Positions 292-10,962 of a stretch of 41,654 bases of DNA are shown here, one piece after another; position 1 is the stretch's first letter; every line of letters starts with the position of its first letter. The translations under genes were made by a program, and so were the position numbers. Location: contig JAUWBF010000025.1 of the NCBI GenBank assembly GCA_030601755.1, forward strand, positions 1-41,654, read 5' to 3'. The DNA is from Verrucomicrobiota bacterium (GTDB lineage: Bacteria; Verrucomicrobiota; Verrucomicrobiia; Opitutales; Opitutaceae). The notes under the pieces are model-generated. The model saw only the letters and a program-made list of their open reading frames with translations. It searched no databases and had not been told where the DNA came from.

Positions 292-3200
292 TCACCCCGA
301 CGCGCGTGCCTGGACGGTTTGCAGCACGGTCAAAAGGCTGTCGACTTCGGACGGGCTGAACAGGCTCTCGGGACCAAGCGGGGCGAGGTCGGTGAAGGGG
401 GAGTCGTAGAGCAGGGCGGCGGGCATGACGCCATTTGCCGTCAGGTGGTCGACGATCAGATTGACGAATTCGATCTGGCTGGCGGTGAGTGTGCCGCCGG
501 CGGTGAAGGCATTGAGCGATTCCTTGGCCGCTTCGCGATCCAGTCCGACCAACGAGCGGACAAACAGTCCGAGCCCTTCACTCTTGGCTTGGGCGATGAA
601 TTCGGGGTCGCCCAGTCCGCTCTCGGCGAGCATGCGTTCCAGTTCGCCCAGGTCGACTGCGGTCAGCGGCTGGTTGGTGCGCAGGCGCTGGATGACAATG
701 TGGTCCTGATGCGCCCGCAGGAACACCCGCGCCTTGTCCCGAAAACGGGCGAACGTGTCGGCTGGCAAAAACGCCGCCAGCGCCACGTCGTTTCCGACGC
801 CGATCTCGTCCTCGAAATCCGTGTAGACGGGTTTGCGACTGGCCTTGTCGATCAACCGAACGAGTGACCGGAGCCTGCGCCGGACGTTTTCCAGCATCCG
901 GACCGTGGCATCCTGCCACCACTCGTCGGTTTGGATTTCCTGAATCAGGCCCAGCTGGGCGTTCACCATCGGGATGGATGACTTTTCCTCCAGCAAGCCG
1001 GCGATGGTTTTGACCTGTTCGCTCAGACGCTTGAACGCCGGCTCGGCGCGCAGCACCGCGAGCTGCAGGTTGAGCAGGAGCAGGTCGAATCGTTTCGCCT
1101 CCTCGCCGTCGCTTTCAACTTCCGAGGGCAGGCCGGCGACCTCGTCCGCGAGTTCGGCATGCTCCTCGACCTTGAGGTCATCCCATGCTTCGCGGCTGGC
1201 ATATTTCTCAACGACGCGACGCTTGGGGCGGACCACGAAGTTGTCCACGTTCATGGCCGCGACCTCCGCGTGCAAGGCGGCGGCCAGTTCGTCGCGCAAC
1301 GGCTCGGGCTCGGCCACGGCGCCGTCGGATCGATGGTCCAGTTCACCGATCAACTCCAGGCGGACCTTGAACAACCGTTTGCCCAGCGATTCGCCGAGCG
1401 CGCCGTCGGTGCTGTCGGGGTTCTGACTGAAAAACTCCAGGTTCTGGCAGTAGTCGAAAATCTGGAAGAACGCCTTGTGCCGGTCGGGGCCGAACAGATC
1501 GCGACAGAGGCGCGTGCCGCGACCGACCATCTGCCAGAACTTGGTCTTCGAGCGCACGAGTTTGAAGAACACCAGATTCAGCACCTCGGGCACGTCGATG
1601 CCGGTGTCGAGCATGTCCACTGAAATGGCGATGTGCGGGTTGCCGTCCTTCTTTGAAAAATCGTCGATCAGGCTCTGCGCGTATTCCGTTTTGAATGTGA
1701 TGACACGGGCGAACTTTCCGGCGAGATGCGGATAGTTTTTATCGAACCGCTCCTGGATGAAATCCGCGTGCGCCTGATTCTTTGCGAAGATGATCGTTTT
1801 CCCGAGTCGGTCGCCACCGGCCACGGTCAGGCCGCGGGTCATCAGGTGGGCGAGCACCTTGTCCACTGTATCGATGTTGAAGAGCCACTTGTTGACCGCC
1901 TCGGGCTCGACGAAGTCTGGCGTGCCGCCGTCTTCGTCCCACTCCTTCGCGTCCCACTGTTCCTTTTCCTCTTCGGACAGATCGTCGTAGCGAATGCCTT
2001 GGCGCTGAAACTTCAGCGGAACCGACACCGCTTTTGAGGGAACGAGGAACCCGTCGCTCACCGCGTCGGCGAGGTCGTAGGCGTCGGTGGGCACGCCCTT
2101 TTCGAGGTCGAACAAACCGTAGGTGTCGCGGTCGATCTCGTCGCGTGGGGTGGCGGTGAGGCCGACGAGCAGCGAGTCGAAGTAGTCGAAGATCGCCTTG
2201 TATTTCTGGTAAACCGAGCGGTGAGCCTCGTCGATGACGATGAGGTCGAAGTGCCCGACACCGAAACGTCGCTGCCCGTCCTTCGCCTCGTTGATCAACC
2301 CCATCATCGTCGGGTAGGTCGACACGAAGACGCGGCCCTCGGCGTCCTTCTCCGTGACGAGGTTGACCGGCGACGACTCGGGCAGATGGGTTTTGAAGGC
2401 GTTGACCGCCTGATTGACCAGCGCCACGCGGTCGGCGAGGAAGAGCACGCGCTTGGCCCAGTTGCAGCGCATCAGCAGATCGGCCAGCGCGATGACGGTG
2501 CGGGTCTTGCCCGCGCCCGTGGCCATGACGATCAGCGCCTTGCGGTCCTTGTCCTTTTCAAAGGTTTCACCGATGCGCCGGATGGCGCGGGACTGGTAGT
2601 AACGCTCGACGATGGCCTCGTTGATCGGTGCCTCGCCCAGTGGTTTGCGCGAACCTCGCCGCTGGACCATCAACTCCAGCTCGGCCTTTTTATAAAAACC
2701 CTGCACGGGACGGGGCGGGTAGGCGGTGTCGTCCCACAGCCAGTGCTCGTAGCCGTTGGTGTAGAAAATGACGGGGCGCTGGCCGAACTGCTTCTCAAGA
2801 CAGTCGGCATAGAGCTCGGCTTGGCGCTGGCCCACGCGCGGATCGCGCCGCGTGCGCTTGGCCTCGACCACGGCCAGCGGCTTGCCGTCGTCGCCCCAGA
2901 GCACGTAGTCGACATAACCCTTGCCCTTGGTGTTGGGCATGCCGTCGACCTCGTATTCACGATCCCGCGACTGATCTAGCGGCCAGCCGGCTTCCTTGAG
3001 CAGCAGGTCGATGAAGGTGTCGCGCGTCTCGGCCTCCGAGTAGTCGTGCGTGTCGGGAGTGCTGGCGTTGGCCTGCTTGGCGGCGGCGACCTCGGCGCGC
3101 AGCCGGATCAGCTCGGCGTCGAGCGCGGCCTTGTCGGCGAGGAGCGTGGCGAGCTTTTCGTCGCGTGCAGCGAGTTCGTCGGAGAGCTTCTGGAGCTGCT

Positions 3201-3663
3201 CGGCCGATTTCGGCGCCGCGGCGGCAGCGGCCGGACGGGGTAGGGCGGCAGGATCGAAGGCCTGCGATGGGGCGGGCTTGGGGCCGGTGGCGTAGGTGTG
3301 GGCCAGCCAGTGCCCGATGTGAAACAGCTCTTTGAGGGCGGTGAGCGCGTCACTGCCCGGGATCGGACGGTGGTGGTGCACGGCGCGGTTGCCGAGCGTG
3401 ACGATCACGCGGGCCTTGTTGAACACCGCCTCGCCGGCGACCTGCTTGAAGGTGGGCTCGTGGAGCAGGGCGCTTAGATTGTCCTGATAGGGCAGGCGCA
3501 GCTTGGCGTCGAATTTGTAGAGCCAGTGGACCAGCAGCTCCAACGTGCGGCGCGCGTAGAAGCAAGACGCCCGGGGATCATCCGCCGCCAAAGCCTCCGC
3601 GCGGTTGGCGGAGGCAAACACCTCGGGCCATTCGTGTTGGAGGAAGGCGAAGTTCGATTTCAC
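292..3663 (-). CDS. hsdR: Type I restriction enzyme, R (endonuclease/translocase) subunit
   Basis: This is the motor and nuclease subunit of a type I restriction-modification complex; with HsdM and HsdS it translocates DNA and cleaves unmodified sites. The 1,123-residue product has an N-terminal DUF4145-like domain (about 5-125), a charged coiled coil (about 150-200), and a PD-(D/E)xK nuclease with Asp in GYVDYVLW near 250 and EAK near 265. The SF2 helicase core follows: ATGAGKT near 380, DEAH near 475, GLTATP near 505 and QMVGRGTRLCRD near 714. The C-terminal part resembles the EcoEI-type R subunit. The start is GTG; its GTGA overlaps the stop of the AbiEii-like toxin gene, so it is translationally coupled to the toxin instead of to hsdM/hsdS, which lie more than 4 kb upstream. 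All visible catalytic motifs are intact. Confidence 0.95.
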   Translation of the reverse strand: MKSNFAFLQHEWPEVFASANRAEALAADDPRASCFYARRTLELLVHWLYKFDAKLRLPYQDNLSALLHEPTFKQVAGEAVFNKARVIVTLGNRAVHHHRPIPGSDALTALKELFHIGHWLAHTYATGPKPAPSQAFDPAALPRPAAAAAAPKSAEQLQKLSDELAARDEKLATLLADKAALDAELIRLRAEVAAAKQANASTPDTHDYSEAETRDTFIDLLLKEAGWPLDQSRDREYEVDGMPNTKGKGYVDYVLWGDDGKPLAVVEAKRTRRDPRVGQRQAELYADCLEKQFGQRPVIFYTNGYEHWLWDDTAYPPRPVQGFYKKAELELMVQRRGSRKPLGEAPINEAIVERYYQSRAIRRIGETFEKDKDRKALIVMATGAGKTRTVIALADLLMRCNWAKRVLFLADRVALVNQAVNAFKTHLPESSPVNLVTEKDAEGRVFVSTYPTMMGLINEAKDGQRRFGVGHFDLIVIDEAHRSVYQKYKAIFDYFDSLLVGLTATPRDEIDRDTYGLFDLEKGVPTDAYDLADAVSDGFLVPSKAVSVPLKFQRQGIRYDDLSEEEKEQWDAKEWDEDGGTPDFVEPEAVNKWLFNIDTVDKVLAHLMTRGLTVAGGDRLGKTIIFAKNQAHADFIQERFDKNYPHLAGKFARVITFKTEYAQSLIDDFSKKDGNPHIAISVDMLDTGIDVPEVLNLVFFKLVRSKTKFWQMVGRGTRLCRDLFGPDRHKAFFQIFDYCQNLEFFSQNPDSTDGALGESLGKRLFKVRLELIGELDHRSDGAVAEPEPLRDELAAALHAEVAAMNVDNFVVRPKRRVVEKYASREAWDDLKVEEHAELADEVAGLPSEVESDGEEAKRFDLLLLNLQLAVLRAEPAFKRLSEQVKTIAGLLEEKSSIPMVNAQLGLIQEIQTDEWWQDATVRMLENVRRRLRSLVRLIDKASRKPVYTDFEDEIGVGNDVALAAFLPADTFARFRDKARVFLRAHQDHIVIQRLRTNQPLTAVDLGELERMLAESGLGDPEFIAQAKSEGLGLFVRSLVGLDREAAKESLNAFTAGGTLTASQIEFVNLIVDHLTANGVMPAALLYDSPFTDLAPLGPESLFSPSEVDSLLTVLQTVQARASG

Positions 3664-4676
3664 AGGCGGGTCAGTGATTGTTCGATGATTCTTAGCTGTT
3701 CTACAAGCTCATCGAAGTCAGGCGGTTCTTTAAAAAACATCGACCGCATGGCCTGATAATCCGCTTTCCACTCGGGCAGTCGCTCCGGCGAGGGCACCAG
3801 CTGCAGATCCTTCGGCTGCAACCGATCGTAATCGATCCAGTTGTAGTCGAAATAGGCGTGCCGGTGCGCCTTCACACCGGCGAACAGCGCGACGAAATTT
3901 GCCTCGTTCGCGACCCCATGGTTCCAGAGCCGGACCAAATCAAACAGGTGTCGGGCTTGGTGCGGTTTCAGCGCCGCCTTTTCCGGTTTGGCGGTGTGCT
4001 GCTCGTGGATCAGCGATGCCTTCTCCCAAAACGTGCGCTCCGGACGCACGCAGGAAAGCGTCAGACTGGGGTTGCCGGTTTCTTCGGGAAACACCTCGGT
4101 GATGTAGGGGCGGATGCTCCGCTCCGACATGGGCCAGCCGTCGGCGCGCCCGCTGAGCTCCACCTTGACCATGGCCTTGTTGTAGTCGGCGGGAGGCCGC
4201 AGTCCGGTGCCGGGATACTCGAAATGGATGCAGAAGGGATCGCGTGCCTTTTCCAGCGGCTCGACCTCGATGCGATTTGGTTCGGGCAAACCGGCGGCCG
4301 CCGCCTGCAGCGCCGGAACCAGCTGATCGTTGATCGCTTCGCGGCATTCCTCGCGCAGCGCCTTGTGGCGGCGGGTTTTCTCGGACGGGCTTATGCCCGC
4401 TTCGCCCGGGTTTTTTGCGTCGCCGAGCCAGTCGCGCGACATGGCCAGATCGACGTCTTCCGAAAAGCGGTCGATCACGCCCCAGGCTTTCGACAACGAC
4501 GTGCCGCCACGAAAGGTCAGGTTGGGGCCGACGGCCGGATGCTCAAACAGCGTCGCCAGCACCCAGCACACCCAGAAATCCTTCTCCATGTGAAACGGCG
4601 GCAGACCGAGTCGGGCGCCCGCTTCGGTGAAAAGCGCGAGCCGATCTTCGGACGGAAGCTGCGCGACGATGTTCAT
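3660..4676 (-). CDS. AbiEii/AbiGii-family nucleotidyltransferase toxin
   Basis: Toxin of an AbiE-type (type IV) toxin-antitoxin pair. Family members are DNA polymerase beta-like nucleotidyltransferases that arrest growth, giving abortive phage defence. The 338-residue product carries the fold's signature: FRGGTSLSKAW with GG at 57-58, then FSEDVDL with metal-binding Asp74 and Asp76. An RPERTFWEKASLIHEQH stretch in the C-terminal half is also typical of AbiEii proteins as I recall them. I place the start at the ATG at 4674-4676 because it overlaps the antitoxin stop as ATGA; an in-frame start 39 nt earlier would lie inside the antitoxin gene. The stop overlaps the hsdR start as GTGA. Toxin, antitoxin and hsdR therefore look like one translationally linked unit. 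Confidence 0.9.
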   Translation of the reverse strand: MNIVAQLPSEDRLALFTEAGARLGLPPFHMEKDFWVCWVLATLFEHPAVGPNLTFRGGTSLSKAWGVIDRFSEDVDLAMSRDWLGDAKNPGEAGISPSEKTRRHKALREECREAINDQLVPALQAAAAGLPEPNRIEVEPLEKARDPFCIHFEYPGTGLRPPADYNKAMVKVELSGRADGWPMSERSIRPYITEVFPEETGNPSLTLSCVRPERTFWEKASLIHEQHTAKPEKAALKPHQARHLFDLVRLWNHGVANEANFVALFAGVKAHRHAYFDYNWIDYDRLQPKDLQLVPSPERLPEWKADYQAMRSMFFKEPPDFDELVEQLRIIEQSLTRL

Positions 4677-5287
4677 GCTTTCGCGGCGATCTTGCGGAAC
4701 GCTTCGCCGACCCACGCCGGGACCAACGGGATGTCGCGGAGGAGCTGGGCCTTGTCGGCGGCGCTCAACCGTTGGCGCAATTTTTCGATGACCTCATCGT
4801 TCACCTGATCCTTGCGCAAAAAGCGCAGGGCCTGCGACACCGTGCCGGAGACCCGGCCGGCCGTCGCCAGTCGCGCGGGCGTGGTCTGCTTGAGCACGAC
4901 GGGCAGCTTCTTGATCATCACCTGTCTGCTACGGCCGTCGGTGAGGTATTCGATTTTGGCCGGCACCTGCTCGGTGAGGCCCAGCAGATTGGCGGCAAAG
5001 GCACCGGAGGGCAGCAGCTTCTGGGCTCCCTTGCGGGCGAGCGCCTTGGCAACGGCCTCGGGACGGGGTGACAATTCACCGATCAGCCGGTTCTTTTCTG
5101 GGAAGCCATACACGCCGCGATCCACCCGTCGAAGGATGCCTTTTTTGACCAAACGCGACAGGGCCAGGTCAACGGCCGAGCGGCTGCCGAGGTCCAGAAA
5201 CTCAGTCGGGGTGCACACGGAACCCCTGCCTCGGCCATAAATACGGCTAAGCACTGATTTTTCGATGCTTTGTGAGAGAACGACCAT
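4673..5287 (-). CDS. AbiEi-like antitoxin / transcriptional regulator (DUF6088 family)
   Basis: Predicted antitoxin partner of the downstream AbiEii-like toxin. The 204-residue product has an N-terminal winged-helix-like segment (about 5-65, including LDLALSRLVKKGILRRVDRGVYGFP-type residues in which RGVY is the usual AbiEi hallmark), followed by the helical body seen in DUF6088 proteins. AbiEi antitoxins are known to bind inverted repeats in their own promoter and repress it. Here a perfect 9-bp inverted repeat lies 8 nt before the ATG. The stop overlaps the toxin start (ATGA). By inference this protein may regulate the toxin and also hsdR, which is coupled downstream. The DUF6088 name is from memory of the family; the AbiEi-like role is supported by gene order. 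Confidence 0.85.
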   Translation of the reverse strand: MVVLSQSIEKSVLSRIYGRGRGSVCTPTEFLDLGSRSAVDLALSRLVKKGILRRVDRGVYGFPEKNRLIGELSPRPEAVAKALARKGAQKLLPSGAFAANLLGLTEQVPAKIEYLTDGRSRQVMIKKLPVVLKQTTPARLATAGRVSGTVSQALRFLRKDQVNDEVIEKLRQRLSAADKAQLLRDIPLVPAWVGEAFRKIAAKA

Positions 5288-5295
5288 GCCGTTTT

Positions 5296-5325
5296 TGTAA
5301 GAAAAACAGGGTATTATTTCTTACA
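5296..5325 (-). promoter_or_regulatory. Perfect 9-bp inverted repeat, predicted antitoxin operator
   Basis: TGTAAGAAA at 5296-5304 and TTTCTTACA at 5317-5325 are perfect reverse complements separated by 12 nt. The element lies between the predicted -10 and the antitoxin ATG. AbiEi regulators bind repeats of this kind, so autoregulation is the natural inference. Confidence 0.7.
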
Positions 5326-5352
5326 GGATAGTCTGGCGAGCAAGCCTTTAAA
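5325..5352 (-). promoter_or_regulatory. Predicted sigma-70-type promoter of the antitoxin-toxin-hsdR unit
   Basis: Read on the minus strand, TTTAAA (5347-5352) and TATCCT (5325-5330) are spaced 16 nt and each matches the -35/-10 consensus at four of six positions. The -10 abuts the inverted repeat, so a bound repressor would cover the transcription start region. Confidence 0.5.
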
Positions 5353-5372
5353 CTTGACCCTCCCAAGGCTCG

Positions 5373-5404
5373 TCCTCACGAGCTGCGCTCGCAACTCGTG
5401 AGGA
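5373..5404. repeat. Intergenic palindrome between the DUF262 and antitoxin genes
   Basis: TCCTCACGAG (5373-5382) and CTCGTGAGGA (5395-5404) form a perfect 10-bp stem with a 12-nt loop. It lies 33 nt beyond the stop of the DUF262 gene. No T-tract follows on either strand, so it is a weak terminator candidate or a REP-like element. It sits at the border between the hsdM-led and antitoxin-led transcription units. Confidence 0.6.
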
Positions 5405-5436
5405 TAATGCGCCTCGCGTGTAAGATAGAATCGGCC

Positions 5437-7161
5437 TCACAGCCCCGCCTGCTTGGCGATGAAGGCATTCATGCGCTCGGCCAGCGCTTCGCGACGCACG
5501 CGGAGAAACTCGCGGTAGTTGTCGAGCTGGAGGAGAGCCGGGTCGTTGGGCACGAGTTGAGAGTCGAGGGCTTGCTGGCCCTGCTCCTTCACAATCTCGG
5601 CGAGATAAACGGAGGGTTCCTTGTTGCTGATGCGGCGGTTGGTCTGGCCGGTGATGAAGGCCATGTTGGCGATTTCATTGATTTCGCCGGTTTCATAGCG
5701 GCCCTTGAGCAGCGACTTGGGGATGATGTGGTGCCACTGGATGAAGTGCAGGCGCCCTTGATGTGTGAGGGAGAGCCCCAGACCACTGAACCAGTCTTTG
5801 GCACCACCGGCCTTGAGCGCGAGGTAGGCGAGCGAGAACAGCGGGCTGTTGGCGCCGCGATTCGCGAGGTCGGCGGGCTCGATGTGCAGGCGACCGAACT
5901 GGCGCTTGAGCGGCCCCATCAGCGCGGCGATGTCTCCGGTGCGGAAGATGATATTCAGATCCTCGTTGAGCAGAGTCTCGGTCGAGCCGCGCGAGAAGTG
6001 GCCGCGGGCGTTGGCGACGAGCAACCAGTGCAGCAAGGCCTGCTGCTCGGCCTGCGTGAGCTTGTTGTCCTTCACGCGGCTGACGGCGGCCAGGGCGTGG
6101 ATGAACATGGGCGACGAGAGCAACGATTCGTCCTCGATGCCGGCGTTGGCGCGCAGGAAGTTGATCGCGAAGCGAAGGCCCTCCTTGGCCTCCTCCCAGC
6201 CGCGCTCCAATTCGGCGACCGGGATGCGGCCGACGTTGTGAAACAGACACTGCTTGGTGGCGAACACCACGATGGCGCGCACCAACTGGCCGAGGTCGAT
6301 GGTGAACCAGCTTTTTTCGCACTCCTCTTGGAACTCCTCCAACTGCTTGAGCAGATTTTGCCAGCGCGACGTGATCTGGGCCAGCGCGAGGTCGGAGGAG
6401 CGTAGCTTGGCACCAAGGGAGTTCACGCGGACGAAGATCTCGGTGACCTCCTGATAATTCATCTCCCGCTCGAGCACGTGGACGACGTAGCTGTAGTCGC
6501 GGATTTTTCGGAGCCGCTGCAGGCGGTCGGAGTATTTCTGGAGCCGCGGGTCGTCCATCGAGGTGATGCCGACCTTCTTCAAAATATCGAAATCCTTGGA
6601 GGACTTGAATACCTCGCTGACGGAGACCCAGTGCGGCTGCGCCTGGAGCGCGCGGCTCGCGACGACGAAGGTGAAGTTTTTGAACCGCTCGGCCACGGCG
6701 GTCTCACTGTCGCCGTTGTCCTCGGTCTCGTCCGACTCCTCGTCGTCGGGGGTCAACGGCGAGTCCACGTCTTCCTCGACCTCGCTGGCCTCCAAGGGCG
6801 GGCCTTCGCGGTGTTCGAGATTGAAGAGGATTTCGATGGGGCGGACGCGATTGCGGACCTTGATCGGCTCGCCGTTGATGACGGCGGTGAGCGAGGTGAG
6901 GCGCTGCTGGCCGTCGAGGAGAAGTTTGCGGCCGGCGAAAGCGCCGATCTGCTGGGCGACGGCGGTGTCGCGGGTGGGCACGGCCTCGTCGGTCTCCCAC
7001 ATGAGGATCGAGCCGCTGGGGTAGCCGCGATAGAGCGAGTCGAGCAGATCGCGGACGCGGGTGGCGCGCCAGACGTAGTGACGCTGTATTTCCGGTAGGC
7101 GCAGCTCGCCGCGTTTATACATGTCCACGAGCGAACTGATGGGGATGTTCTGTTGTTGCAT
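5437..7161 (-). CDS. DUF262/DUF1524-type (GmrSD-like) putative DNA endonuclease
   Basis: The 574-residue protein joins an N-terminal DUF262 (ParB/Srx-like NTP-binding) domain with a C-terminal His-Me finger nuclease of the DUF1524 type. The DUF262 signature LLLDGQQRLTSL lies near 80-90, preceded by LPEIQRHYVW. The nuclease motif HHIIPKS begins near 476, with the following TGQTNRRISN supplying the usual Asn. Known relatives include GmrSD and BrxU, which cut modified phage DNA in an NTP-stimulated way. The start is taken at MQQQNIPISSL; an 18-codon upstream extension is possible but reads like non-coding sequence. A short ORF ends 5 nt before this start. The position behind hsdS suggests a partner that would attack phage DNA whose modification escapes the type I enzyme; that role is inference. 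Confidence 0.85.
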   Translation of the reverse strand: MQQQNIPISSLVDMYKRGELRLPEIQRHYVWRATRVRDLLDSLYRGYPSGSILMWETDEAVPTRDTAVAQQIGAFAGRKLLLDGQQRLTSLTAVINGEPIKVRNRVRPIEILFNLEHREGPPLEASEVEEDVDSPLTPDDEESDETEDNGDSETAVAERFKNFTFVVASRALQAQPHWVSVSEVFKSSKDFDILKKVGITSMDDPRLQKYSDRLQRLRKIRDYSYVVHVLEREMNYQEVTEIFVRVNSLGAKLRSSDLALAQITSRWQNLLKQLEEFQEECEKSWFTIDLGQLVRAIVVFATKQCLFHNVGRIPVAELERGWEEAKEGLRFAINFLRANAGIEDESLLSSPMFIHALAAVSRVKDNKLTQAEQQALLHWLLVANARGHFSRGSTETLLNEDLNIIFRTGDIAALMGPLKRQFGRLHIEPADLANRGANSPLFSLAYLALKAGGAKDWFSGLGLSLTHQGRLHFIQWHHIIPKSLLKGRYETGEINEIANMAFITGQTNRRISNKEPSVYLAEIVKEQGQQALDSQLVPNDPALLQLDNYREFLRVRREALAERMNAFIAKQAGL

Positions 7162-7166
7162 GGGGA

Positions 7167-7244
7167 TTAAGGCTGCATCGGCGCCATGATCTTCACTCGC
7201 TGAGCCACTTCGCACTGCGCATAACTCTCTTCAAAAGTGCTCAT
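7167..7244 (-). CDS. Possible 25-residue ORF coupling the HNH and DUF262 genes
   Basis: An ATG at 7242-7244 overlaps the HNH gene stop as ATGA and opens a 25-codon frame (begins MSTFEESYAQCEVAQ) ending in TAA at 7167-7169, 5 nt before the DUF262 start. It could be a translated spacer that carries ribosomes to the DUF262 start, a small protein, or chance. No family is recognisable. Confidence 0.3.
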   Translation of the reverse strand: MSTFEESYAQCEVAQRVKIMAPMQP

Positions 7245-7912
7245 GCGCAAAGCCCGTTGTGGTAGTCGATGAACTCCTGCCGAACGGCATGGCCTGTGGC
7301 TTTGCGAAGTTTCGTCGAATCGATCTTGATCGCCAAAAAGTCGAGCTTCACGTGGCAATTCGGGCACACGCAAAGGATGTTGTCCTCCACGTCCGGGCCA
7401 TCGTGCGGCTTTCCGAGCGGCTTCAGGTGATGGCCTTCGGAGTAAAAACGATCTTTGGTTAGTTCCAGACGGCCGGTGCAAATCTGACATGTCTGGCGGT
7501 GAGCGTGTTTCACTTTGCGCGCAACCTTCGTATCACGCACCACCCGGGAGAGCGTCACGCTTACACGCGGAGGCAGCTCGTCGGCCTTCGTGTCGACTGC
7601 TACCAAGGATTGTCCTTCGTCGACCGCAAACTTCACATAGAGACGAAGGGCCGGGATGAGGTTGCGCTGAAGATCGCGGAGGTTGAACTCTCCGCTACCT
7701 CGACCGCCGTGATCGATCGCGCGCCTGACGTCCTCAGCGATGCGTTGCACGTCTTGCTCTGAAGATACGTGATCTGGATCGATCGGGCGGCCAAACGCAC
7801 TGAGGTATCGGTCTAGGAAGTAGGGGTATTCTTTGCAGGTTTGAGGGGCGTAATCCTTCGCTTTCATCCAGCGTGCGAAATCGGGGAACCGGTCGGCGGT
7901 GTGGCTGGACAT
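7241..7912 (-). CDS. HNH endonuclease embedded in the restriction locus
   Basis: The 223-residue protein has a C-terminal HNH nuclease: CQIC near 142-145, GHHLKPLG near 160, a conserved Asn in DNILCVCPNCHVK and the second Cys pair CPNC near 180, giving a zinc-braced beta-beta-alpha-metal site. The N-terminal ~95 residues (FARWMKAKDYAPQTCKEY and following) resemble the SAM-like core-binding domain of tyrosine recombinases by pattern; this is my reading and not a confirmed domain. It starts 5 nt after the hsdS stop, so it is co-transcribed with hsdS. Base composition is visibly more A+T-rich than in hsdM or DUF262, suggesting separate acquisition. A defence nuclease is likely; its target is unknown. 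Confidence 0.85.
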   Translation of the reverse strand: MSSHTADRFPDFARWMKAKDYAPQTCKEYPYFLDRYLSAFGRPIDPDHVSSEQDVQRIAEDVRRAIDHGGRGSGEFNLRDLQRNLIPALRLYVKFAVDEGQSLVAVDTKADELPPRVSVTLSRVVRDTKVARKVKHAHRQTCQICTGRLELTKDRFYSEGHHLKPLGKPHDGPDVEDNILCVCPNCHVKLDFLAIKIDSTKLRKATGHAVRQEFIDYHNGLCA

Positions 7913-7917
7913 AGGCT

Positions 7918-9117
7918 TCAGAGTTCGCCTCGGAAGGCGCGGTGCTGGAGGGTGGCGAAGAGCGCGTCCAACTCCGCCAGCGACGCGCGCTGCGCGGCTT
8001 TGAGTTTCTCCACCACCGTCACTCGCCGGGCGAATTCACGCTGCTGGGCGATGGGGGGGCAGATTGCCTCGAAGACTTCAATCTGTGCCTTGGTGATTGC
8101 TTCGCGGGTCGCACCTGCTCCGCCGATTTTGAGCAAGCGTCGCTTGGTCTGCTCAGCTAAAAGAAACTGCTCCAGGAATACGGCGTTGAGTGTCGGCTTT
8201 GGCCGGATGATGCAGACATGCTGATTCACTCGCGCGGGAAGCACCGACGAAGGAGCACGGCAAACTCGCGCGACGGAAGCCCCGGTGATGTTCAGCAGCA
8301 CGTCGTCTGCCTCGACGACAACGCCAGCTAGCTTCGCGGCCTGTAGGTTGTCGATGAAAGCGAGGTCTTTGAGGGTGAACTCGCCATCGCGAACGTTGAG
8401 ACTTCGGATAAGCGAAATCCCTTCGGTCTTGTATGCCGTCTCGCCGCCTGTCGGCGTCGAACCGCTTCCGATTTTCGTGGTGTGTTCGCCGAGCCGAACC
8501 AGCGGCCAGCGTTTCGGATTGGTGGCGGGGTCGCCGAAGAGGTCGAGGAAGAGGGATTGGGTGAGGGAGTCGAGTTGGGCGAGGGCGGCGCGGCGCTTGG
8601 CCCGCAACGCCTCCGCCCGGTCCAGCACCTCCGCTATCCGCCGCTGCTCCGCCAGCGGCGGCAGGGGGATTGGGTGTGAAGCATAGCTCGACCATTTAAG
8701 ATTCGGGTAGGTCGAAGCTCCAACGATGGTTTTGACGAACGCCTTGGAGGCTCCGCTGTTCAGCACATACCAGACGTAACGCGGGACCACGGTGGATTCG
8801 TCCACCCGAAGGCGTAGCAGGAAGTTTGACGCGACGATTTGACCGGCTCGGTCGGCGCCACAAATCGCAGTCTTCCCCGAAAGTATGTTTGCCTTTGAGC
8901 CACTCGATTTCACGACGAGCAACTCACCTTCCTTGACGAGGAGATTCTTGATTTGGTCGTCGCGGAATCGGCGTTTCTCGAAGTCGCCGTGAAACTGACC
9001 TTCCCCGTTTACGTTGCTGACCTTCACGACGTCGAACGACGGTGCGTCATCCGACGGGTCATCGCCGTAGTCGCAGGGCAAACTCTCTGCGATTGAGCCA
9101 AGGCGAACCGTTTTCAC
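7918..9117 (-). CDS. hsdS: Type I restriction-modification specificity subunit
   Basis: HsdS sets the DNA target of the type I complex through two target-recognition domains. In the 399-residue product, TRD1 spans about 1-150. The central conserved region (LPPLAEQRRIAEVLDRAEAL to LFLDLFGDP, about 150-195) contains the coiled-coil spacer. TRD2 follows to about 350, and the distal repeat (PPIAQQREFARRV to QHRAFRGEL) closes the protein. Both halves are complete. The start is GTG, overlapping the hsdM stop as GTGA. The TRD-coding parts are less GC-biased than hsdM, which fits the known swapping of recognition domains. The target sequence cannot be predicted from this. Confidence 0.95.
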   Translation of the reverse strand: MKTVRLGSIAESLPCDYGDDPSDDAPSFDVVKVSNVNGEGQFHGDFEKRRFRDDQIKNLLVKEGELLVVKSSGSKANILSGKTAICGADRAGQIVASNFLLRLRVDESTVVPRYVWYVLNSGASKAFVKTIVGASTYPNLKWSSYASHPIPLPPLAEQRRIAEVLDRAEALRAKRRAALAQLDSLTQSLFLDLFGDPATNPKRWPLVRLGEHTTKIGSGSTPTGGETAYKTEGISLIRSLNVRDGEFTLKDLAFIDNLQAAKLAGVVVEADDVLLNITGASVARVCRAPSSVLPARVNQHVCIIRPKPTLNAVFLEQFLLAEQTKRRLLKIGGAGATREAITKAQIEVFEAICPPIAQQREFARRVTVVEKLKAAQRASLAELDALFATLQHRAFRGEL

Positions 9118-10691
9118 TTCAGCATCCCCTCCAGCTCCTTCATGCCCTGCTGGATCTCGGCCTCCAGTTTTTCGAGGGCCTTTAAAATTTCGCCGGGTGG
9201 GCGGTGGGCGACTTCGGCGTGGACGACTTCCTTGTAGCGGTTGAGCGAGAGGTCGTAGCCCTGCGCGGCGATGTCGGCCTTGGGCACGCAGAAGCTTTGC
9301 GCGGTGCGCGGACGAGTCGCCTCCGGCGACTCGCGTTTAAGTTGAGAGTTTAAGTTTAAGGGATGGAGCGAACGCCAGCGGGCGAGGAGGTCGGGGAGAT
9401 TGTTTTTGGCGTGGTCGTCGGCGGTGAGGGCGACGCGGGGCACGGGGCCGAATTTCTCCTCGGGGACGAGGTCGGTGCGTTTGTCGTCGAGGCTCTTGCC
9501 GTCGGCGTCCACGTCGTAGAACCAAACGTGGTCGGTGCCGCCGGAGTTGGTCTTGGTGAAGAGGAGGATGGCGGTGGAGACGCCGGCGTAGGGCTTGAAT
9601 ACGCCGCCGGGGAGGGAGATGACGGCGTCGAGTTTCTGCTCCTCGACGAGGATCTGGCGGAGTTGTTTGTGGGCCTTAGACGAACCGAAGAGCACACCGT
9701 CGGGCACGATGACGGCGGCGCGGCCGCCGGGTTTGAGCAGGCGCAGGAAGAGGGCGAGGAAGAGGAGCTCGGTCTTCTTGGTTTTGACGACGGTGAGGAG
9801 GTCCTTGGCGCAGTTTTCGTAGTCGAGGGAGCCGGCGAAGGGGGGATTGGCGAGGATGAGGGTGTATTTTTCCTCTTCGCCGGCGTGGTCCTGGCCGAGG
9901 GAATCGCGGTAGCGGATGTCGGGGTTTTCCACGCCGTGGAGGAGCATGTTCATGCTGCCGATGCGGAGCATGGTGTTGTCGAAGTCGAAGCCGTGGAAGG
10001 CGTCCTCGTGGAAGTGTTTCTTGAGGCGGGCGTCGCGGAGGATCTCGGGGTGGTGGGCGCGGAGGTATTCGCCGGCGGCGACGAGGAAACCGCCAGTGCC
10101 GCAGGCGGGGTCGCAGATGGCGTCGCGTGGGGTGGGCGCGGTGAGCTCGACCATGAGCTGGATGATATGGCGCGGGGTGCGGAACTGGCCGTTCTGCCCG
10201 GCGCTGGCGATCTTCCCGAGCATGTATTCGTAGAGGTCGCCCTTGGTGTCGCGGTCCTCCATCGGCACGGCGTCGATCATGTCCACGACCTTGGCGAGGA
10301 GGGCGGGCGTGGGGATGGTGAAGCGCGCGTCCTTCATGTGGTGCGCGTAGGTGGAGCCGTCGCCGCCGAGGGTGCGCAGGAAGGGGAAGACGTGGTCGCC
10401 GACGACCTCAAACATGGCCTTGGGGTCGCCGAGGTGCTTGAAGCGCGACCAGCGGAGGTCGTCGTAGGGGCGGCCACGGGGGTCTTTGCCCTCGGGGAAG
10501 ACGCGGCGTTCGAGTTTGGGGAGTTTCAGGCGGGCGGCCTTGTTCTCCTCCAGGGTGTGCAGGTCGTCGAGGCGCTTGAGGAAGAGCAGGTAGGTGATCT
10601 GCTCGATGACTTCGAGGGGGTTGGAAATACCGCCGGTCCAGAAGGCATTCCAGAGGGCGTCGACTTTGCTGCGGATTTCGCCGGTTAACAT
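9114..10691 (-). CDS. hsdM: Type I restriction-modification methyltransferase subunit
   Basis: N6-adenine DNA methyltransferase of the type I complex, using S-adenosylmethionine. I start it at the ATG at 10689-10691 (MLTGEIRSKVDALWNAFW), giving 525 residues, the normal size; an in-frame upstream extension is proline-rich and non-homologous in look. It has the N-terminal HsdM helical domain (about 1-130), the SAM-binding motif DPACGTGGFLV near 194, and the catalytic NPPF near 281. It overlaps hsdS by 4 nt (GTGA) and is the first gene of the island in transcription order. A strong terminator on the same strand lies 54 nt upstream, so its own promoter must be in that short gap, although I see no clear one. 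Confidence 0.95.
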   Translation of the reverse strand: MLTGEIRSKVDALWNAFWTGGISNPLEVIEQITYLLFLKRLDDLHTLEENKAARLKLPKLERRVFPEGKDPRGRPYDDLRWSRFKHLGDPKAMFEVVGDHVFPFLRTLGGDGSTYAHHMKDARFTIPTPALLAKVVDMIDAVPMEDRDTKGDLYEYMLGKIASAGQNGQFRTPRHIIQLMVELTAPTPRDAICDPACGTGGFLVAAGEYLRAHHPEILRDARLKKHFHEDAFHGFDFDNTMLRIGSMNMLLHGVENPDIRYRDSLGQDHAGEEEKYTLILANPPFAGSLDYENCAKDLLTVVKTKKTELLFLALFLRLLKPGGRAAVIVPDGVLFGSSKAHKQLRQILVEEQKLDAVISLPGGVFKPYAGVSTAILLFTKTNSGGTDHVWFYDVDADGKSLDDKRTDLVPEEKFGPVPRVALTADDHAKNNLPDLLARWRSLHPLNLNSQLKRESPEATRPRTAQSFCVPKADIAAQGYDLSLNRYKEVVHAEVAHRPPGEILKALEKLEAEIQQGMKELEGMLK

Positions 10692-10744: not shown

Positions 10745-10776
10745 AAAAAAAGCCCGCCGGCGGGTGGCGGGCGGGC
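10745..10776 (-). terminator. Rho-independent terminator upstream of hsdM
   Basis: Read on the minus strand, GCCCGCC and GGCGGGC form a 7-bp stem around an 11-nt loop and are followed directly by seven T. It would stop transcripts coming from the yjdM-like gene and insulate the restriction operon. Confidence 0.7.
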
Positions 10777-10840
10777 AAAGGGGGCGCGGTGCGCAGTCGG
10801 AGCGTGGGGGGGGCGGAGGGAGTCGCGGACGGGCGAGGCG

Positions 10841-10962
10841 AGGGTCCCCGAGCTCACGCTCGGGGCCACGGGGGCGGGGCGAGGCAGGGGGATCGGGTGG
10901 CCCCGGGCGTGAGCCCGGGGATGTTCGCCAAGGGTCCCTGAGCTCACGCTCGGGGCCACGGG
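10841..10962. repeat. Three-hairpin repeat module, copy A
   Basis: Three 20-nt hairpins with 8-bp stems and 4-nt loops: 10846-10865 (CCCCGAGC, loop TCAC), 10901-10920 (CCCCGGGC, loop GTGA, so inverted) and 10936-10955 (CCCTGAGC, loop TCAC, one G-T wobble). Each is flanked by CCAC on the side following the TCAC-strand stem. The same arrangement recurs at 11706-11828. It is a REP/BIME-like dispersed repeat by structure. Confidence 0.8.

Follow-up and report, generated by a model that had tools for sequence, protein, structure and literature searches.

The window analyzed here, a 41,654-nucleotide stretch of DNA (positions 1 to 41,654 of contig JAUWBF010000025.1, assembly GCA_030601755.1) from a Verrucomicrobiota bacterium of the family Opitutaceae, contains a type I restriction–modification (RM) locus in which an AbiE-like antitoxin–toxin gene pair lies directly before the restriction gene hsdR. 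The pair, the inverted repeat in front of it and the possible control of HsdR by the antitoxin are the subject of this study. The genes share the minus strand in the order hsdM, hsdS, HNH endonuclease gene, GmrSD-like gene, antitoxin, toxin and hsdR, with intergenic spacings of −4, 5, 25, 149, −4 and −4 nt (Table 1). An earlier note on this DNA had described hsdM and hsdS as a separate cluster, which has to be qualified: the genes from hsdM to the GmrSD-like gene are on the same strand with short spacings, and the 149-nt gap before the antitoxin comes after them. The 4-nt overlaps that it reported, ATGA between antitoxin and toxin and GTGA between toxin and hsdR, were verified in the sequence.

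HsdM, HsdS and HsdR all carry their core domains (Pfam and PADLOC), as in a type I RM system, and the antitoxin gene stands directly before an AbiEii gene (PF08843, E = 7e-40; PADLOC AbiEii, 2.2e-90), as in an AbiE-like pair. The toxin retains the nucleotidyltransferase signatures GGTS and EDVD, and HsdR retains GAGKT and DEAH.

Table 1. Genes and sequence features of the RM locus in window coordinates
Feature	Position	Strand	Basis and remarks
hsdM	9114..10691	−	N6_Mtase and HsdM_N (Pfam); likely ATG at 10691 from start context; open reading frame (ORF) opens with TTG at 10778
hsdS	7918..9117	−	Methylase_S (Pfam); PADLOC Specificity_I
HNH endonuclease cargo gene	7241..7912	−	PF01844 HNH
GmrSD-like (DUF262) cargo gene	5437..7215	−	PF03235 GmrSD_N; ATG at 7161 more likely, judging by start context
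Stem-loop 3' of the GmrSD gene	5375..5402	−	Strong, single-copy, without a U-tract
Weak promoter-like pair TTTAAA-16-TATCCT	5325..5352	−	8/12 by eye; missed by consensus scan
Inverted repeat with perfect 9-bp arms and 12-nt spacer (predicted operator of the antitoxin)	5296..5325	−	Centre 23.5 nt before the start codon
DUF6088/AbiEi-like antitoxin, winged helix-turn-helix (wHTH) and C-terminal domain	4673..5287	−	PF19570 DUF6088 and PF13338 AbiEi_4; PADLOC; structural model
AbiEii nucleotidyltransferase toxin	3660..4676	−	PF08843 AbiEii; PADLOC
hsdR, with a GTG start that overlaps the stop of the toxin gene	292..3663	−	DUF4145, HSDR_N, ResIII, EcoEI_R_C; PADLOC

Predicted operator and promoter of the antitoxin

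The inverted repeat lies exactly where the earlier note had placed it, with perfect 9-bp arms (TGTAAGAAA-N12-TTTCTTACA). When up to three mismatches were allowed, the window had a single such site (none in 100 shuffles), and so did the whole 3.55 Mb assembly when both strands were read (152 contigs, 96% complete). Of 387 genomes from the phylum, 67 carry a relative of the antitoxin at E ≤ 0.001, and 60 loci were fetched. In a perfect-arm test (arms of at least 8 bp, spacer of 6–16 nt, −75 to +15 bp of the antitoxin start), a dyad was present in 33 of 63 antitoxin loci, compared with 1.9% of 2520 shuffles and two of 60 control stretches. A mismatch-tolerant dyad (at least nine paired positions) was found upstream of 42 of 65 DUF6088 antitoxin genes, compared with 77 of 1300 shuffles (5.9%) and five of 59 control stretches, and its centre fell 21–25 nt before the start in 33 of the 65 genes (4/1300 in shuffles). 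The arm sequences vary from locus to locus yet pair within each locus (TGTAAGAAA, TGTCAGAAA, TTCACAAA, TGTTATAAA and more). Furthermore, a dyad is present in all six hsdR-linked loci of the HsdR family of the window for which the region upstream of the antitoxin is available (the window, L032, L166, L230, L276 and L277), as well as in L044; that of L032 has one mismatch in an arm and fails the perfect-arm test. From these sequence comparisons, the palindrome is a predicted member of an antitoxin-family operator.

The promoter-like pair of the earlier note, TTTAAA (5352–5347) and TATCCT (5330–5325) separated by 16 nt, is present, but it is weak, and TTTAAA is not conserved in G085, the genome that carries L032. 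By eye, many unlinked loci have a TTG at −35 distance before the left arm, which neither the window nor most of the hsdR-linked loci show; the promoter of the window itself may therefore be weak.

Predicted fold of the antitoxin

The structural model of the antitoxin (predicted local distance difference test score, pLDDT, 91.9) has the two-domain arrangement of AbiEi, an N-terminal wHTH followed by a C-terminal domain, and PADLOC assigns the protein to AbiEi (1.3e-64). The two best Foldseek matches were Rv2827c (1zel, E = 3.5e-4) and Streptococcus agalactiae AbiEi (6y8q, E = 8.3e-4), with modest TM-scores of 0.43–0.51 among the chains of the two entries. VIA-align superposed 175 of 204 residues on 6y8q (Z = 8.2, root-mean-square deviation 4.1), near the level at which common arrangements appear, and the 17 rows ranked above 6y8q cover only approximately residues 1–71, the winged helix. 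A sequence search of solved structures using the antitoxin and the toxin as queries gave no meaningful match. The cut-off of the NCBIfam AbiEi equivalog NF047376 was not reached (21.4 of 150 bits), and the protein belongs instead to the DUF6088 branch.

Judging by the model, the antitoxin looks able to bind DNA. According to the available text of PMC3985639 and PMC7319586, Rv2827c and AbiEi repress their own promoters via inverted repeats, and in that of PMC3985639 AbiE repression is unaffected by the toxin. It is likely that the antitoxin of the window also represses its own promoter.

Conservation of the unit as one block

The window and L032 align at 77% over a block that opens at 5348, 22 bp above the operator, and includes hsdR; hsdM aligns at 90% and hsdS, over its second half, at 85%. 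Between the aligned parts, the window has the HNH and GmrSD-like genes and G085 has an AAA/TOPRIM-like gene (named by eye). A 40-bp remnant of the gmrSD start is retained in G085 (L032:8446–8485) just before the block. Because this remnant is left, gmrSD was probably lost in G085 by a deletion reaching the edge of the operator.

Recurrence of the antitoxin–toxin–hsdR order

Whole-genome searches with HsdR gave matches in 62 of 387 genomes at E ≤ 1e-40 and in 26 of 384 at E ≤ 1e-150; further loci came from named GTDB contigs (the best 80 loci of at least 593 pattern matches) and from four plasmid neighbourhoods. The resulting 140 HsdR loci are a mix of several samples in which no two share HsdR DNA at least 97% identical over 400 bases. 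The pair precedes hsdR in seven of the 140 loci, from six genomes: the window, L032, L161 (G250), L276 and L277 (both G630), L166 (Opitutaceae) and L230 (Verrucomicrobiia). Among loci with at least 1.1 kb upstream, the count is six of 125, L161 having less. The gene order, whose absence from relatives the earlier note had named as a refutation, thus does recur, but it is rare. The pair is always on the same strand and directly upstream of hsdR; in the 120 loci that extend at least 1.1 kb beyond hsdR, it was never found downstream (in the window, 291 nt remain past the end of hsdR). The toxin/hsdR junction is GTGA in the window, L032 and L161, ATGA in L166, L276 and L277, and a short gap in L230.

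An eighth case, L044, was found from the antitoxin side and lies outside the 140 loci. Here the HsdR that follows the pair belongs to another subfamily (HSDR_N, SWI2/SNF2), and its gene is truncated where the contig ends; the overlap of toxin and hsdR is 11 nt, and the palindrome follows hsdS directly. In L166, the toxin frame is broken by two in-frame stops, with its pieces lying before the hsdR start, and the antitoxin, palindrome and hsdR appear intact; if the breaks are real, the antitoxin has outlasted its toxin ahead of hsdR. The hsdR of L161 is without its middle, and those of L276 and L277 are in pieces. Since the genomes are drafts, some of these breaks may be sequencing errors. On the antitoxin side, EcoEI-type HsdR genes lie farther downstream on the antitoxin strand in L045 and L063, and other type I genes lie near the antitoxin loci L049, L051, L053 and L062.

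The six linked toxins do not form one clade (approximately unbiased test, p-AU = 1.3e-69, four changes of state), and neither do the linked toxins in a tree with four linked rows (p-AU = 5.6e-5, three changes of state). Open pieces shorter than 240 amino acids (toxin) or 150 amino acids (antitoxin) were left out of the trees, so that the interrupted L166 toxin is absent; because of its long branch, L090 was omitted from the second toxin tree. Because the linked toxins are not one clade, the gene order is most simply read, from these trees, as the result of repeated arrival rather than of single inheritance. A chance juxtaposition without a functional link is very improbable: most of the fetched antitoxin–toxin pairs do not lie beside a window-like hsdR, as would be expected by chance, but the linked toxins belong to separate branches and are each time on the same strand, directly upstream.

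All cases of known kinship fall within the phylum of the window. At the limits used, 317 plasmid records had a toxin match and 39 an HsdR match, and the pair was in none of the four HsdR neighbourhoods inspected; with only four of 39 inspected, plasmids are hardly tested. Phage records gave nine antitoxin matches, all below 60% identity.

Genes between hsdS and hsdR

In other loci, the genes directly before hsdR encode HepT and MntA (L177, L235 and L245), an MNT protein (L128), YefM–YoeB (L225), HipA with an HTH protein (L187), Fic (L169, L172 and L215), UPF0175 (L241), Mrr (L221), GmrSD (L170 and L171) or a PLD-like protein. The Pfam scans covered 30 proteins picked from 63 unlabelled upstream genes and their neighbours, and because this was a chosen set, no rate of slot content can be obtained from it. 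With loci of HsdR below 400 bits excluded, the upstream gene was identified in 97 loci (27 further loci have none identified), and it is hsdS in 28 of them. In L062 (12773–17588), the order is HTH–HipA–hsdR, with a HindI-like HsdR and two 4-nt overlaps; this is a second type of toxin–antitoxin (TA) system with a DNA-binding antitoxin before hsdR.

The pair may accordingly be one of many defence cargoes in the slot between hsdS and hsdR, with hsdR transcribed mainly by read-through from hsdM, the pair acting as back-up abortive infection or as a stabiliser of the locus, and any control by the antitoxin incidental. This is a serious possibility, which we hold to be somewhat short of an even chance. 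It fits the varied TA, Fic, Mrr and GmrSD genes that fill the slot elsewhere, the 28 loci in which hsdS itself is the upstream gene, and the upstream genes of the window, which share its strand with short gaps; it does not fit the 149-nt gap holding a conserved palindrome, the apparent gmrSD loss of G085 ending just before the operator, or the operator of L044 directly after hsdS.

Proposed mechanism

With a probability of roughly 0.5, we read the window as a composite type I RM locus in which an AbiE-like pair precedes hsdR, the operator, antitoxin, toxin and hsdR form one antitoxin-repressed transcript, and the dose of HsdR follows the antitoxin. The unit would be co-transcribed from the antitoxin promoter, the winged helix of the antitoxin would bind the palindrome and repress that promoter, and toxin and HsdR would be translationally coupled through their 4-nt overlap. 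At steady state, the dose of HsdR would be low and buffered, at least partly set by the antitoxin level; on a fall in antitoxin, which may occur in infection, toxin and HsdR would rise together. Restriction would thereby be joined to abortive infection, because the toxin would rise with HsdR when the antitoxin is lost.

That the antitoxin sets HsdR levels, the core of the earlier note, is plausible, and the antitoxin-family operator before the unit and the recurring gene order speak for it; the same interpretation went too far in its restriction delay and its claim of novelty, discussed below. The delay of restriction until methylation is established is not borne out: a negative autorepressor is absent on entry, and a delay needs an activator, as in the type II C protein. 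Because the autorepressor would be absent, toxin and HsdR would instead be made at once, in an initial burst.

Several observations weigh against antitoxin control of hsdR. The dyad is absent at 23 of the 65 antitoxin genes, so that the dyad rule is not universal, and a window-like HsdR is directly next to the antitoxin locus in only one of 60 cases (G085), the pair usually occurring without it. A 4-nt overlap between hsdR and the gene before it occurs in 28 of the 97 loci; two of these are the window and L032, and in seven the gene is hsdS. Since hsdR has such overlaps with neighbours of various kinds, the overlap does not single out the toxin and was ruled out as a sign of a special toxin–hsdR link. 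The four changes of state in the toxin tree cannot separate gain from loss. The stem-loop at 5375–5402 has no U-tract, and transcripts from hsdM may therefore run through it. Finally, a consensus scan at 9/12 found no minus-strand site within 3000–7500, so that the antitoxin promoter is without a strong match to sigma-70.

The same scan bears on an hsdR promoter in the 3' part of the toxin gene, which would leave the antitoxin without control of hsdR and which we consider unlikely. Promoters of this kind are known in type I systems, EcoKI-type loci having one for hsdR, and the promoters of this phylum may not match the Escherichia coli consensus. Against this stand the lack of a minus-strand sigma-70-like site at 3000–7500 and the 4-nt overlap, which leaves no intergenic space; the former is a weak argument because the scan misses the antitoxin promoter too.

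Antitoxin control of hsdR, if true, would mean that one DNA-binding protein links restriction to toxin release, and the TA pairs found repeatedly in front of hsdR would have a common rationale other than being cargo. It is a more doubtful, tentative extension that type I restriction has on many occasions acquired an autorepressing antitoxin as its built-in governor, AbiE-like here and HipBA or others elsewhere, such that toxin and nuclease rise together through one switch.

Relation to known systems

The closest published system is the RRDM defence island of enteropathogenic E. coli, which according to the available text of PMC12255303 consists of RptR, hsdM, hsdS, DarTG2 and hsdR. The DarTG2 site was published in 2025 and called a potential recombination hotspot, and the hsdM transcript rises in infection (PMC12255303). 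Both loci have a TA pair between hsdS and hsdR and a locus-encoded DNA-binding transcriptional repressor, a candidate one in the window. RptR, as described there, is a separate 79-amino-acid protein, encoded upstream of hsdM and acting on the island promoter, whereas the candidate repressor here is the antitoxin itself, the operator follows hsdS and the cargo genes, and hsdM–hsdS lie outside the controlled unit. No rptR-like gene was found directly upstream of hsdM, since only ∼60 nt separate the terminator-like site at 10772–10752 from the hsdM ATG (ORFs shorter than 80 amino acids were not listed and the region farther upstream was not searched). With DarTG2 already reported in the corresponding position, where RptR is the repressor, the earlier note's 'new regulatory design' is too strong: a TA pair in this slot is known, and the window is another variant, with the antitoxin as candidate governor.

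As in type IV AbiE systems (PMC3985639 and PMC7319586, available text), the antitoxin gene comes first and the toxin gene second, the antitoxin has a predicted wHTH and C-terminal domain, and the promoter carries inverted repeats. A further mark of type IV systems is that the two proteins do not bind to one another. The window differs in its DUF6088 branch, in a 9-12-9 palindrome compared with the 23-3-23 sites described for S. agalactiae (PMC3985639) and in having hsdR as a third and last gene. It is also similar to type II RM systems with C proteins, small DNA-binding proteins that are encoded together with the restriction gene and act on an operator, as predicted here; C proteins, as presented in the available text of PMC3874152, are activators as well, which enables them to delay the endonuclease, whereas a pure autorepressor would not, and in the window the candidate regulator doubles as an antitoxin and the enzyme is of type I. 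PrrC, RloC and HEPN toxins (PMC3506569 and PMC3710099, available text) are likewise encoded inside RM operons and repeatedly displaced by other toxins; the immunity loci discussed in the accessible part of PMC3506569 seem to be without typical antitoxins, whereas the window has a full antitoxin gene. For EcoKI, HsdR is controlled at the protein level via ClpXP, as told in PMC12255303. Among the matches listed in the openly accessible literature, no description of an AbiE pair in front of hsdR appeared, and none of an antitoxin as candidate hsdR governor, of its operator family or of its repeated recruitment.

Other features of the locus

The N-terminus of HsdR (window 3331–3600) is a DUF4145 domain with GNRAVHHH at residues 91–98. 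DUF4145 is placed among the HEPN families in a table of PMC3710099, as far as its available text shows, and GNRAVHHH could be a candidate for the HEPN R-x4-6-H motif; a toxin-like RNase domain may be part of HsdR itself.

The stem-loop upstream of the antitoxin was ruled out as an intrinsic terminator, having no U-tract, and as a repeat element, having one copy in the assembly. Comparable gaps fold no better than shuffles in L032 and L276; the gap of L166 (equalled by 7/200 shuffles) and, in L230, the stretch that follows hsdS (2/200) do fold better, and the L230 stretch closer to the operator does not.

Before hsdM, a terminator-like hairpin followed by seven T lies at 10752–10772, ∼60 nt from the ATG; given its position, the hsdM promoter is probably within this short gap. 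The region at 10840–10955, farther before hsdM, holds two near-identical copies around GTGGCCCCGAGCGTGAGCTC, and similar peptides occur in ORFs near 11.5–11.8 kb; the GTGGCCCCGAGCGTGAGCTC stretch looks like an interspersed repeat.

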